64,000 nt of DNA from Synechococcus sp. UW69 (GTDB lineage: Bacteria; Cyanobacteriota; Cyanobacteriia; PCC-6307; Cyanobiaceae), in assembly GCF_900474185.1 (NCBI RefSeq), contig NZ_UCNW01000008.1, positions 124,001 to 188,000 on the forward strand, given 5' to 3'. A program made the position numbers and the translations under genes. Shown piece by piece: positions 4,134-55,441 of the stretch. Each line of letters starts with the position of its first letter. The first letter of the stretch is position 1. Below the pieces are notes generated by a model. It did not search any database and had not been told where the DNA came from. It worked only from the letters and a program-made list of their open reading frames with translations.

Positions 4134-4858
4134 AGCTGGAATCCCTCCCCGAGGTAGTAACGCCGCACCTGGGGATCGGCTGCGACCTCATCGGAGCGTC
4201 CTGCAGCCAACACCGCTCCATCGTTAAGGATGTAGGCACGATCGGTGGTGGCCAGCGTTTCGCGCACGTTGTGATCGGTGATCAGGATGCCCATGCCCCG
4301 TGACCGCAATCCCTCAATCAGCAGTTGAAGGTCGGCGACAGCCAGGGGATCGACACCAGCGAAGGGTTCATCCAGGAGGAGATAAAGCGGTCCATTGACA
4401 CCGGAGGCCAGCGCTCGGGCAACCTCACAGCGACGACGTTCCCCACCGGAGAGTTGGAAGCCACGGCGGTTCATGAACGCCGTGAGATGGAAGTCTTCAA
4501 TCAACTGCTGGCGCCGGTCCCGCCGTCGTTCAGGGCTGAGATCGGTCTGCTCAAGAGCAATATCCAGATTTTCGCGCACGGTGAGATTGCGAAAGACACT
4601 GGCTTCCTGGGGCAGATAGCCCACACCGAGACGGGCCCGTTGCGGCATGGGAAGGTCTGTGACACGCCGACCATCAATAACCACATCACCCTGATCAGGG
4701 CATAGCAGACCAATCACCAGGTTGAAGGTGGTGGTTTTGCCGGCTCCGTTGGGGCCGAGCAACCCGACCACCTCGCCAGGAGACAGCGCCAGATCCAGAT
4801 CCTTCACCAGCTGACGCCCCCCCAATGTGATGGAGACGTTTGACAGTTCCAGGGTCAT
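4130..4858 (-). CDS. lptB: LPS export ABC transporter ATPase LptB
   Basis: The 242-residue ATPase has Walker A GPNGAGKT (35-42), signature LSGGE (136-140), Walker B ending LLLDEP (Asp163-Glu164) and switch His196. The EAL-rich C-terminus with RRYYLGEGF is typical of LptB. The ATG at 4858 (MTLELSNVS) is preferred over a longer frame to 4921 because it overlaps the lptA stop by 4 nt (ATGA) and aligns with the family start. It powers LPS extraction from the inner membrane together with the downstream permease. It sits between lptA and lptF in a coupled operon. Confidence 0.93.
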   Translation of the reverse strand: MTLELSNVSITLGGRQLVKDLDLALSPGEVVGLLGPNGAGKTTTFNLVIGLLCPDQGDVVIDGRRVTDLPMPQRARLGVGYLPQEASVFRNLTVRENLDIALEQTDLSPERRRDRRQQLIEDFHLTAFMNRRGFQLSGGERRRCEVARALASGVNGPLYLLLDEPFAGVDPLAVADLQLLIEGLRSRGMGILITDHNVRETLATTDRAYILNDGAVLAAGRSDEVAADPQVRRYYLGEGFQL

Positions 4859-52693: not shown

Positions 52694-53119
52694 ATGAGCT
52701 TTGATCCCCGCAGTCTGGAGCGCCTGCGTGAGTTGGGACGCCAGCTCCCCGAACGTTTGCCAGAACCCAAGCCCCCGGCGGCAGCCAAAGCAAGCCAGGC
52801 GAGCCACCGCGTCGAAACGGAAAAGGATCCCGAGGAACTTTTCCGGGAACTGATGAAGGCGAGCCAGGACGGCACGGTTCCTGAGCACCTCATGGCCCGC
52901 CTCAAACAGTTGGAAGCCCAACGCAAGCCGTCGGGGCAGTCTTCGTCCTTGAACAGCAGCAACGAGGTTCCAGGCCTGGCCGCCCCGACGCGTAGCCAGG
53001 CTGGACCGGGAAAAAACACCAAACCAAAACGGCCGAAGGTTGACCCGGGAAGCGAAGAGGAGAGCCTCTATGTGGCCTTCGGTCAGCTGCTTCTCGAGGA
53101 CGAAGGAGATGACGTTTGA
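52694..53119 (+). CDS. Hypothetical protein, 141 aa
   Basis: A hydrophilic, Pro/Lys-rich protein starting [21 protein letters not shown] short helical segment ([20 protein letters not shown]) lies between low-complexity linkers, and the C-terminal [19 protein letters not shown] may be a small conserved element. No domain is recognised. It overlaps rlmH by 4 nt and may be co-translated with it. Confidence 0.7.
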
Positions 53120-53550
53120 ACCCGGCTCGTTGCCGGATTCTAGCGGTGGGCAAAGTGCGTCGCGGTTGGATTCAGGAGGGCATTGAGCTTTACCTCAAAC
53201 GCCTGCCGGGATTGACCATCAGCGAGCTTCGGGACAGCACCCCGGACAAAGAGGCAGATGCGATCCGAGCGGCCCTAAGGCCAGACGAAACCCTGATCGC
53301 TCTCATGGAGCAGGGCGAGACCCTGGCGTCGGTTCCCTTCGCGCGACGACTCGAACAGTTCGGTTACGAGCGGCTGGTCTTTGTGATTGGTGGAGCCGAT
53401 GGTCTGACCCCTGAGCTCAAGGCACAGGCCCACTGGCGCCTGAGCCTCTCTCCAATGACTTTCCCCCATGAACTAGCGCGACTGATGCTTGTGGAACAAC
53501 TGTTCCGGGCCCAGGCGATTGTTCAAGGCAGCCCTTATCACCGCGCCTAA
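53116..53550 (+). CDS. rlmH: 23S rRNA pseudouridine-1915 N3-methyltransferase
   Basis: A 144-residue SPOUT methyltransferase: [34 protein letters not shown] and [20 protein letters not shown], ending GSPYHRA, the conserved C-terminus. It methylates pseudouridine 1915 in helix 69 of 23S rRNA as a homodimer. The start is TTG at 53116 overlapping the upstream stop. Confidence 0.97.
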
Positions 53551-53586
53551 GATTTCTCGGTCGCTGCAGCTCTTTCTCTCTCCACC

Positions 53587-54423
53587 ATGCGTCTGGCTCT
53601 GCTCTCCCCGATCCATGGCCAGTCAATTGATCACATTGCCCGACAACTGGAGAACTACAGGGTGTTTCTTACACCCTTTGAGTTGCGTCATTACTTCCAC
53701 GTTTCTTTGGAGAGTCATCCAGACCTCCAATCCGACCTCACCGCCCTCGCCGAACGGGAGGGTCACAGCATCCACTTCACAAAACGAAGGCAGCCCACCT
53801 GGCGGCCCTGCACCGTTTATGCCCTGTGCGAACTAATCAAGACCGTCCTGTCCGACCACCACTGTCCTGACAAGGTGCTTATTCACACCGATACTGACCT
53901 TCTTGTCTCCAGCCAGGCGAAGAATCAACTCTCCAACCACCGTATCGGCTGCGGCAACAAGCCATTTCGGATTGACAGAAAAACCAGTTGGAGATGGAGA
54001 TCAAAAGCTAAATCTGATCCTCACCTCAAACAATTTGTCAGGGAAATGTTGGACGACGACCCTTCAAAGCTCCGGGTTGGGCGGGTTTGTGGTACCTACA
54101 TGCCCTGGTCGACCTTCAAAACTTTCGGGGTGCTCTTCAATAACTATTTCAACAACAACTACTTCAAGAGAAGGCCCAAACGCCACTGGCCCGTAACTGA
54201 AATCGCTATACCCAGCATTCTTCATCTTTTAGAGGGCCCAAAAGCCAACTTTCAACCTCCTTTGATCGAAGTACCAGACGGCAAAAAAGTGTCCTGCAAA
54301 AAAATCGATCGGTTGCTCCAAAGCGATCACAGCTTTGGACTCAAAAAAATTGCCAGGGATACAGACAGCGAAGCGTTCCAGTACGTGATGCGCCTGCAAA
54401 AACAAGCCTCGCAACACGCCTAA
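53587..54423 (+). CDS. Glycosyltransferase-like protein, unknown, 278 aa
   Basis: No family can be named with confidence. The protein begins MRLALLSPIHGQSIDHIARQ, a Rossmann-like beta strand. A DxD-like IHTDTDLLVSS sits near residue 97, and a conserved-looking block VCGTYMPWSTFKTFGVLF lies around 167-184, which together suggest a GT-A glycosyltransferase. The C-terminal half is basic and Asn/Lys/Phe-rich (NNYFNNNYFKRRPKRHW). Codon use is AT-richer than adjacent genes, hinting at acquisition. It lies 3 bases before a 2OG-oxygenase-like gene. Confidence 0.6.
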   Translation: MRLALLSPIHGQSIDHIARQLENYRVFLTPFELRHYFHVSLESHPDLQSDLTALAEREGHSIHFTKRRQPTWRPCTVYALCELIKTVLSDHHCPDKVLIHTDTDLLVSSQAKNQLSNHRIGCGNKPFRIDRKTSWRWRSKAKSDPHLKQFVREMLDDDPSKLRVGRVCGTYMPWSTFKTFGVLFNNYFNNNYFKRRPKRHWPVTEIAIPSILHLLEGPKANFQPPLIEVPDGKKVSCKKIDRLLQSDHSFGLKKIARDTDSEAFQYVMRLQKQASQHA

Positions 54424-54426
54424 ACC

Positions 54427-55026
54427 ATGCTGCACGTGGTCGACAACCTGCTGCAACCCGAGGAGCTGCAACACCTGCGGGATCTTTGCGACATCCATGG
54501 CCGGCTCATGGAGCAGCATTCCGGCGATGCTCAGTTCAGCTGGCGACCCGAGAGCGGTGCCCCCCGCTCCATCCACGCGCCCGCCCAGCAAGCCATCGTC
54601 GATCGCTATCTCGACGAGGTTCTTCTCCCCCTAGCCACACCGTTCGCACCCCAGCGGGCCGGGATCGAGTGGTGGTGCAATACCAACAACGACCTCGATT
54701 GGCACATCGACAAGGACGAACTGGAAGGCCAACACAGCGGCCGCTATGTACTGCCGTTGCTGTCCACAGTGTTCTATCCCCACGTCAGCTGTGCTGGAGG
54801 TGAACTTCTGGTCGCCGACAACCCCCCGATCAGCAACGGCTATCAGGGTCCCCTGCCAACGTTCCGGTCTGTGATCTCGATCCCGCCTGTGGTGAACCGT
54901 TTGGTGCTCTTCTCACCCGGAATCCTGCATCGCATCAACCCATTCGAAGGCGAGCGCTACTCCGTGGCCGTGAACATCTGGGCTCAACCGCCCCTCACCA
55001 CAACTGCTGCAGAGCCACCGGCTTGA
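54427..55026 (+). CDS. 2-oxoglutarate/Fe(II) oxygenase-like protein
   Basis: A 199-residue protein with a cupin-like iron site: His93 and Asp95 in DWHIDKDE, His168 in LHRINPF and a candidate 2-oxoglutarate-binding Arg177 in GERYSVAVNIW. The spacing fits prolyl-hydroxylase-like enzymes. A Gly-rich loop (CAGGELLVADNPP) separates them. The substrate is unknown. It follows the glycosyltransferase-like gene by 3 bases, and its end overlaps the next opposite-strand gene by 32 nt. Confidence 0.75.
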   Translation: MLHVVDNLLQPEELQHLRDLCDIHGRLMEQHSGDAQFSWRPESGAPRSIHAPAQQAIVDRYLDEVLLPLATPFAPQRAGIEWWCNTNNDLDWHIDKDELEGQHSGRYVLPLLSTVFYPHVSCAGGELLVADNPPISNGYQGPLPTFRSVISIPPVVNRLVLFSPGILHRINPFEGERYSVAVNIWAQPPLTTTAAEPPA

Positions 55027-55441
55027 ATTTCTCAATCGATACGGTCCAGGCCCGCGGAGAAAAGGTCTGCAGCGCCGCTTTGAATGCAGCCGTATCACCC
55101 GTGTTCAGCCAGTCCGCCTTAAGCCTGGGCACATCCTCCGGCAGCCGCTCCATCGGCAGCTCCACCAGCAGCAGACTGTCTGCTCCAGCAGCACGCTGCA
55201 GAGAGCCCTGATCGCTGCGCTGGAAGACCCGCAGCAGCAGCTCCAGCACCAAGACATGACCCAACTCTTCCGGAGCCTCACCCTGCGGAGCCACCTCTTT
55301 CTGAGAGCGTCCCCCCAGAGGCAACGCCCGCTGCCCCTGCTGATCGATCAACGCCATGGCCACGAGATAAGGAGAGTCAGCCAATACCAGAACCCGAAGA
55401 CCACCATCCTCACCGGACCCTCCCCATACCGATAAGTACAT
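54995..55441 (-). CDS. Hypothetical protein, 148 aa
   Basis: The apparent product starts MYLSVWGGSGEDGGLRVLVL. The middle is rich in hydrophobic beta strands (VLVLADSPYLVAMALIDQQG), and the C-terminus is helical (DTAAFKAALQTFSPRAWTVS). No family is recognised. The ATG lies inside a LexA-like palindrome, so the true start may be further in (for example Met28, MALIDQQGQ); the gene would share SOS control with umuD. Confidence 0.6.
   Translation of the reverse strand: MYLSVWGGSGEDGGLRVLVLADSPYLVAMALIDQQGQRALPLGGRSQKEVAPQGEAPEELGHVLVLELLLRVFQRSDQGSLQRAAGADSLLLVELPMERLPEDVPRLKADWLNTGDTAAFKAALQTFSPRAWTVSIEKFKPVALQQLW

Follow-up and report, generated by a model that had tools for sequence, protein, structure and literature searches.

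A patchily distributed, glycosyltransferase-like gene with divergent alleles between rlmH and a prolyl-hydroxylase-like oxygenase gene in marine Synechococcus

A candidate glycosyltransferase gene that adjoins the gene of a prolyl-hydroxylase-like enzyme raises the question of whether the bacteria that carry both join hydroxylation to glycosylation. Such a pair follows rlmH in the stretch of Synechococcus sp. UW69 DNA analyzed here (64,000 nucleotides of contig NZ_UCNW01000008.1, hereafter the window). An earlier note, made from the letters of the sequence, had described the two genes as an island of only about 1.4 kb, with a base composition in favour of transfer, that could form an acquired small modification system. 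Nothing on the pair was found in the open-licence literature searched, including excerpts of PMC7864055, PMC7522525 and PMC9602691. Here we describe the layout and composition of the locus, the state of both genes across the genus, and the history of the first gene, which we call the GT gene after the glycosyltransferase that it probably encodes.

Layout, composition and the oxygenase

The GT and oxygenase ORFs are both intact in the window and run in the same direction as rlmH (Table 1). The gap between rlmH and the GT gene is 36 bases and that between the GT gene and the oxygenase gene, whose ATG is at 54427, is 3 bases; the ORF coordinates, the 3-base gap and the position after rlmH given in the earlier note were all recovered. 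The 148-residue ORF is conserved in the genus and overlaps the end of the oxygenase gene tail to tail, and beyond it lie two genes that we take to be umuD- and umuC-like. Its product has no Pfam or NCBIfam match. This ORF was present in 28 of the 32 loci fetched, mostly near the oxygenase gene, and lies approximately 670–1240 bases from it in eight outer GT-free genomes (loci L092, L097, L098, L099, L100, L103, L104 and L105). A minus-strand ORF of 101–109 residues sits between the two genes in G020, G022 and G023, the three listings that were examined.

Table 1. Features of the rlmH–oxygenase region, in positions of the window
Feature	Position	Strand	Remarks
rlmH (23S rRNA pseudouridine-1915 N3-methyltransferase), conserved upstream anchor	53116..53550	+	PF02590, E 8e-40
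Leader, 36 nt, from rlmH to the GT start	53551..53586	+	
GT gene, 278 aa, predicted GT-A-like glycosyltransferase without family match, AT-rich, patchy	53587..54423	+	Stop codon TAA
GT N-terminal part, residues 1–107, conserved, ending just past D102xD104	53587..53907	+	
GT C-terminal part, residues 108–278, variable	53908..54423	+	Nucleotide divergence peak at ~53800–54400
2OG/Fe(II) oxygenase, 199 aa, prolyl-4-hydroxylase-like fold; H93, D95, H168, R177	54427..55026	+	PF13640
Conserved protein, 148 aa, without family match; neighbour, outside the pair	54995..55441	-	

The G+C content in the window is 0.51 for the GT gene (GC3 0.60), 0.62 for the oxygenase gene (GC3 0.74) and 0.61 for rlmH (GC3 0.66). 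A 1-kb profile has a local minimum at 53501–54500 (0.519), and the start of the window is equally low. In all 12 loci measured (11 genomes) the GT gene was AT-richer than its region by 3 to 13 points, and in the same survey the G+C content of the oxygenase gene was close to or higher than that of its region, falling short of it by no more than 3.3 points. The AT-rich composition ascribed to the pair thus holds for the GT gene and not for the oxygenase gene. AT-richness is confined to the GT gene, and therefore the island consists of one gene of approximately 0.84 kb, and not of the 1.4 kb previously claimed. Purifying selection acts on both genes, with a whole-gene dN/dS of 0.08–0.23 in 11 of 12 pairs of GT genes, the twelfth being saturated, and 0.08–0.14 in the 10 pairs of oxygenase genes.

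The earlier assignment of the second protein as a 2OG/Fe(II) oxygenase is supported, and by the similarity of its modelled fold the enzyme is prolyl-hydroxylase-like and may act on prolyl residues. Its match to PF13640 scores 32.8 bits against a curated cut-off of 27, and the same family was matched by all 17 oxygenase members at E ≤ 0.1. Residues H93, D95, H168 and R177, singled out in the earlier note, are invariant in the 17 aligned oxygenases of the genus, as well as in a further alignment, of 14 proteins, that draws 10 of them from viral contigs. We take the first three to be the HxD...H iron triad and R177 to be the 2OG-binding arginine. The structure model is good (pLDDT 84.5, pTM 0.83) and, in fold searches that included Foldseek, came closest to Pseudomonas putida P4H (Z 13.9) and PHD2 (Z 13.7). 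PolD and SnoN are among the fold matches as well; SnoN is a small-molecule pathway enzyme by its title, and PolD presumably is one too. When solved structures were searched by sequence, the oxygenase reached only 6iuq (E 0.28 and 0.026). The relatives found outside the genus are cyanophage or viral-contig proteins of approximately 23–37% identity. The phrog_274 label of the oxygenase, 'DNA endonuclease V', was judged a mis-label, the fold and the residues being those of a 2OG oxygenase.

Distribution and state of the two genes in the genus

The genus set comprised 34 genomes of marine Synechococcus. Retention of both genes beside rlmH in all relatives, combined with the lack of a structural match, had been named as what would tell against the earlier reading; what we found is a GT gene in 15 of the 34 genomes, directly behind rlmH in all 16 loci of those 15. 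No match to it was found in the 64 relatives outside the genus among the 98 scanned, and a scan of 386 genomes of the phylum returned a match in four, all within the genus. In a scan of 59 genomes, rlmH was found in 30 and the oxygenase in 27 of the 34 genus genomes, with a further oxygenase remnant in G004, and the oxygenase was absent from the 25 non-genus genomes. The oxygenase gene comes next after the GT gene, in the same direction, in 14 of the 16 GT loci, the exceptions being G025, where the contig ends inside the GT gene, and G004 with its remnant. It also follows rlmH in lineages of the genus that have no GT gene. The presence of the oxygenase beside rlmH with and without its neighbour contradicts the proposal that the pair was acquired together: only the GT gene has been gained or lost.

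The loss has left a precise trace. G033, G001 and G031 branch within the GT-bearing clade, and in each of them the 36-nt leader is joined directly to the oxygenase ATG, so that exactly the GT frame is gone. The distance from rlmH to the oxygenase gene is 36 bases in these three genomes and 4–5 bases in the outer GT-free clades; because the two genes lie only this far apart, there is no replacement gene at the GT site in the GT-free genomes compared. The starts of the GT and oxygenase genes share GACCATGC in G028 and G013 and ACCATGC in the window. This start-codon repeat is 7–8 bases long in three of the nine genomes compared and 0–5 bases long in the other six. Deletion between short direct repeats would be a simple mechanism where the repeats are present.

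The state of both genes was scored in 29 of the 34 genomes, leaving out G018, G024, G027 and G030, which are incomplete drafts with no rlmH match, and G025. Both genes are intact in 11 genomes (G000, G009, G021, G008, G028, G003, G029, G017, G014, G005 and G011); G011, a draft with 6% contamination, has two near-identical copies. An intact GT gene stands beside a broken oxygenase gene in two drafts, G013 and G004, and in G019 each gene has a stop. The GT gene is absent and the oxygenase broken in five genomes (G033, G001, G031, G032 and G016), whereas in nine the GT gene is absent and the oxygenase intact (G026, G002, G015, G012, G010, G006, G023, G022 and G020; that of G012 has no ATG at the expected start and was counted as intact). 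Neither gene was found in G007. The 29 scored genomes do not show the two genes always together and intact, as an obligate pair would be.

Within the window's clade (14 rows, G025 unscored) the oxygenase gene is broken in four of the four genomes whose GT gene is lost or broken versus one of the nine with an intact GT gene (Fisher 0.007); across all 29 genomes no significant association was seen (Fisher 0.13). Relatedness is not taken into account in these counts, and, with some lesions shared between lineages, the co-decay events are not all independent. Several lesions were located individually. In G004 (L090, after base 4295 of the reversed locus) the oxygenase gene is cut to an N-terminal remnant behind the intact GT gene. 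A stop at oxygenase codon 83 (W83) is common to G019 and G013 (L087, L086), and a one-base deletion at oxygenase base 351 is common to G001 and G031 (L079, L085). In the flank trees neither of these two pairs forms sisters to the exclusion of lesion-free genomes. Broken oxygenase alleles may have spread by recombination, or they may reflect recurrent or assembly events.

The co-decay could be a matter of chance in a dispensable stretch, the two genes being unrelated and a glycosyltransferase for a surface glycan having landed between rlmH and the oxygenase gene. We regard this as possible but unlikely. The nine outer-clade genomes that keep an oxygenase without a GT gene are consistent with it, and so is the lack of a significant association over the 29 genomes. 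The oxygenase is moreover broken in G032 and G016 and was not found in G007, all three GT-free, which suggests that it is dispensable anyway. What this account handles poorly is the GT-bearing clade, where loss of one gene accompanies loss of the other in all four genomes.

The same four genomes count in favour of a two-step modification of a protein or peptide, in which the oxygenase hydroxylates, for example, a proline, the glycosyltransferase caps the hydroxyl and the alleles differ in acceptor context. The constant order and direction of the genes in 14 of 16 loci, the 3-base gap in the window, the nearness of the oxygenase fold to P. putida P4H and PHD2, and the occurrence of LH3 and xylosyltransferase 1 among the Foldseek matches of the GT model all point the same way, and a precedent is found in Skp1, whose prolyl hydroxylation enables its glycosylation according to PMC7864055. 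This scheme nevertheless appears rather unlikely, given the nine genomes with an intact oxygenase and no GT gene and the two with an intact GT gene and a broken oxygenase; it also comes with no substrate candidate, and PolD and SnoN, among the fold matches of the oxygenase, are small-molecule enzymes. Its most specific form, in which the oxygenase hydroxylates a protein, at the cell surface or elsewhere, the new hydroxyl is glycosylated by an unclassified GT-A enzyme and acceptor specificity is reset between strains by C-terminal swaps at one chromosomal site, we consider quite doubtful.

A functional coupling of the two proteins is plausible but would be partial and not obligate, because the oxygenase is intact in nine genomes that have no GT gene and broken in two whose GT gene is intact. 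Of the small modification system suggested in the earlier note there remains the co-decay in one clade, which speaks for it; the intact oxygenases of GT-free genomes elsewhere speak against an obligate pair.

The GT protein and the divergence of its alleles

We assign the 278-residue protein to the GT-A-type glycosyltransferases, as a lineage-restricted member, an assignment supported by a weak model. As the earlier description of a protein without clear family implied, it has no Pfam or NCBIfam match. For 14 GT members nothing in Pfam scored better than E 0.06 and no glycosyltransferase appeared at E ≤ 10, with HMMER filters that drop most matches above E ~0.1. One of the 14 has a weak match to the phage family phrog_9504 (E 0.0055), and a sequence search of solved structures gave no convincing match. 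The DxD-like motif already noticed in the sequence is D102-T-D104 (HTDTDLL), and neither aspartate varies across an alignment of 14 homologues, which includes two near-copies from one draft genome. In the model the motif sits between predicted strands 96–99 and 104–107. GT-A enzymes carry their DxD at that place, after the strand that follows the nucleotide-binding part.

Structure prediction, proposed earlier as a check for a GT-A fold, gave a low-confidence model (mean pLDDT 55.6, pTM 0.56, from an alignment of six sequences) whose listed matches are glycosyltransferases. The best 50 Foldseek matches are glycosyltransferases or LH3, 25 of them at E ≤ 0.001. A VIA fold search returned 136 of 999 chains at Z ≥ 8, with a best Z of 9.9 and a Z of 8.5 at row 50, and the matches listed are all glycosyltransferases; the baseline quoted for models without a clear match is 7–8 at best and 4–5 at rank 50, below the values for the GT model. 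The longest alignments listed are those with C2GnT-L and xylosyltransferase 1 (207–222 residues, Z 8.6–9.2), while ArnC (Z 9.9) and GlfT2 (Z 9.5) score as high or higher with fewer residues aligned.

Placement in two known families is not supported at the sequence level. For GT14 (Pfam Branch, PF02485) no match to PF02485 was found among the 14 members at E ≤ 10, and an hhalign comparison with 11 cyanobacterial GT14 proteins gave E 0.14 over 47 columns. For GT8 (PF01501) there was likewise no Pfam match, and the comparison with 16 cyanobacterial GT8 proteins gave E 0.08 over 35 columns. A phage origin of the GT gene was rejected: neither a search of 50,697 phage records (E ≤ 1) nor a pattern-based scan of viral contigs turned up a match. 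The pattern-based scan of genome_contigs for distant bacterial homologues gave seven loci, all titled Synechococcus.

It is decidedly improbable that the protein is some other Rossmann-like nucleotide-binding protein and that its fold match is a product of the weak model. The lack of a sequence-level family match, the low mean pLDDT and the profile comparisons with GT14 and GT8 would allow for this, but not only are the listed Foldseek and VIA matches glycosyltransferases, aligned over as many as 222 residues, the D102xD104 motif is also invariant and follows a β-strand.

Divergence between alleles is concentrated in the GT gene. Over the 28 pairs of eight close genomes, mean nucleotide divergence is 20–32% in the four 150-base windows that span 53798–54397; in the flanking windows it is 8–13% in most and at most 18.6% in single ones, ignoring the alignment ends (before ~52150 and after ~55900), which are approximately 50% divergent or uncovered in several genomes and are non-homologous. 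In a set of eight close genomes that differs slightly from the former, the mean pairwise identity of the GT protein is 0.911 for residues 1–107, 0.665 for residues 108–235 and 0.681 for residues 236–278, and six oxygenases average 92% identity.

Two pairs of genomes served as controls, in windows of 450 bases. Between G028 (134-kb contig) and G003 (260 kb) the GT window is the most divergent of 2214, at 37.1%; the median is 6.9%, the 99th percentile 27.3%, and the GT flanks are at 5.2% and 2.8%. Two further peaks in this pair reach 35.8% and 34.7%, one without a clear gene and one in an ORF of 166 residues. Between G009 and G019 (~200 kb, 65% aligned) the GT window, at 18.9%, falls just below the 99th percentile of 19.2% (2460 windows) and is not the top window, the maximum being 31.1%. 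Circular shifts of the alignment columns, as a test against regional variability, reached the observed value in a fraction of 0.085; this weak test was not used.

The top window of the G009/G019 pair (31%, flanks 9%) is at G009:C1 ~220200–220650 (L195), in an open frame of 401 residues that, by eye, we take to resemble an LptF/LptG-type permease; it may be a further surface gene with exchanged alleles. Two ORFs of similar appearance, of 166 and 191 residues, lie under peaks at G028:C2 ~86350–86800 (L178) and G009:C1 ~218200–218650 (L195); by eye, they have a signal-peptide-like start and a glycine-rich end.

The trees of the GT gene and of its flanks disagree. The GT centre places G028 with G008 (99/98) and G021 with G003 and G029 (100/99), groups that the flanks reject (p-AU 7e-12 and 1e-4, respectively); the flanks in turn join G003, G029 and G028 (100/100), which the GT centre rejects (p-AU 5e-5), with the reservation that the groups for the AU tests were named after viewing the alignment and that several GT branches are long. 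At the protein level this last group is rejected by GT residues 108–278 (1e-10) and is not rejected by residues 1–107 (0.11); support for G008 with G028 on residues 108–278 is only 83/83. The GT protein also joins G005 with G011b (99/98, both on long branches) and rejects G005+G014+G004 (0.009), and the flank proteins reject G005+G011b (3e-44). The oxygenase alone places G005 with G014 (98/92) and rejects both G005+G011b (0.03) and G008+G028 (0.005). There is no conflict for G009+G019, which the GT centre does not reject (p-AU 0.39), and the flank shows some conflict of its own, as the oxygenase protein, taken by itself, rejects G003+G029+G028 too (0.007).

The conflict between allele trees and flank trees is best accounted for by recombination, through which divergent GT alleles have probably been exchanged, most strongly in the C-terminal part. 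That the alleles only evolved fast and clonally under relaxed constraint, with no recombination, is barely credible: the C-terminal part is indeed the least conserved in amino acids and some groupings are without conflict, but at synonymous sites the GT centre is more divergent than the oxygenase in all 10 pairs with both, the dN/dS of the centre is 0.06–0.26 in the nine of 12 pairs where it was computable, and the allele trees conflict with those of the flanks.

Proposed role and relation to known systems

Taking the evidence together, we lean towards an allele-swapped glycosyltransferase that modifies an acceptor, probably a surface structure, and that stands beside an older hydroxylase. The GT gene would be a variable site of one gene, set into a resident rlmH–oxygenase gene pair. 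From the anatomy of GT-A enzymes, its conserved N-terminal half, with the DxD, is probably the donor half that holds the nucleotide-sugar site, and its C-terminal half probably the acceptor half; the latter would be represented by old and divergent alleles, passed from strain to strain when the conserved flanks recombine homologously, and the whole frame could be deleted from start codon to start codon. The enzyme most likely transfers a sugar to an acceptor that is not the same in every strain. Its target, at present a guess, would probably be a cell-surface glycan or protein under selection by phages or grazers. The oxygenase would be an older, prolyl-hydroxylase-like hydroxylase of the genus, and in the GT-bearing clade the two proteins probably came to depend on each other in part.

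One gene of 0.84 kb in a housekeeping region thus combines presence and absence, precise loss, allele exchange and a divergence far above that of its surroundings. Such a pattern would be expected where ecological selection, for example by phages or grazing, favours diversity, and the site provides a compact and testable entry point to strain-specific glycosylation. According to PMC7522525, genomic islands often account for differences in gene content among marine Synechococcus, and the picocyanobacterial islands include one with a β-glycosyltransferase; islands are defined there as 10-kb windows with over half of the coding bases in gained genes. The GT site has patchy gene content in common with these islands of marine picocyanobacteria but is one gene in a housekeeping region, and a 10-kb criterion of that kind would miss a single gene.

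Among characterized enzymes, the GT14 members C2GnT-L and xylosyltransferase 1 resemble the GT model in fold over almost the whole chain and in the place of the DxD; C2GnT is metal-independent according to the title of 3otk. The GT protein differs in having no PF02485 match or convincing profile match, and other GT-A families tie with GT14 in Z. The oxygenase shares PF13640, the fold and the HxD...H plus arginine arrangement with prolyl-4-hydroxylase-like oxygenases, namely the P. putida P4H of EF-Tu and PHD2, although identity in the fold alignments is only 13–20%. The coupling of a 2OG hydroxylase to a glycosyltransferase is known from the Skp1 pathway and from LH3, a lysyl hydroxylase with a glycosyltransferase domain. 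Those systems are eukaryotic and LH3 is one polypeptide, whereas in marine Synechococcus the two proteins are encoded by separate genes and the oxygenase often occurs without the GT gene.
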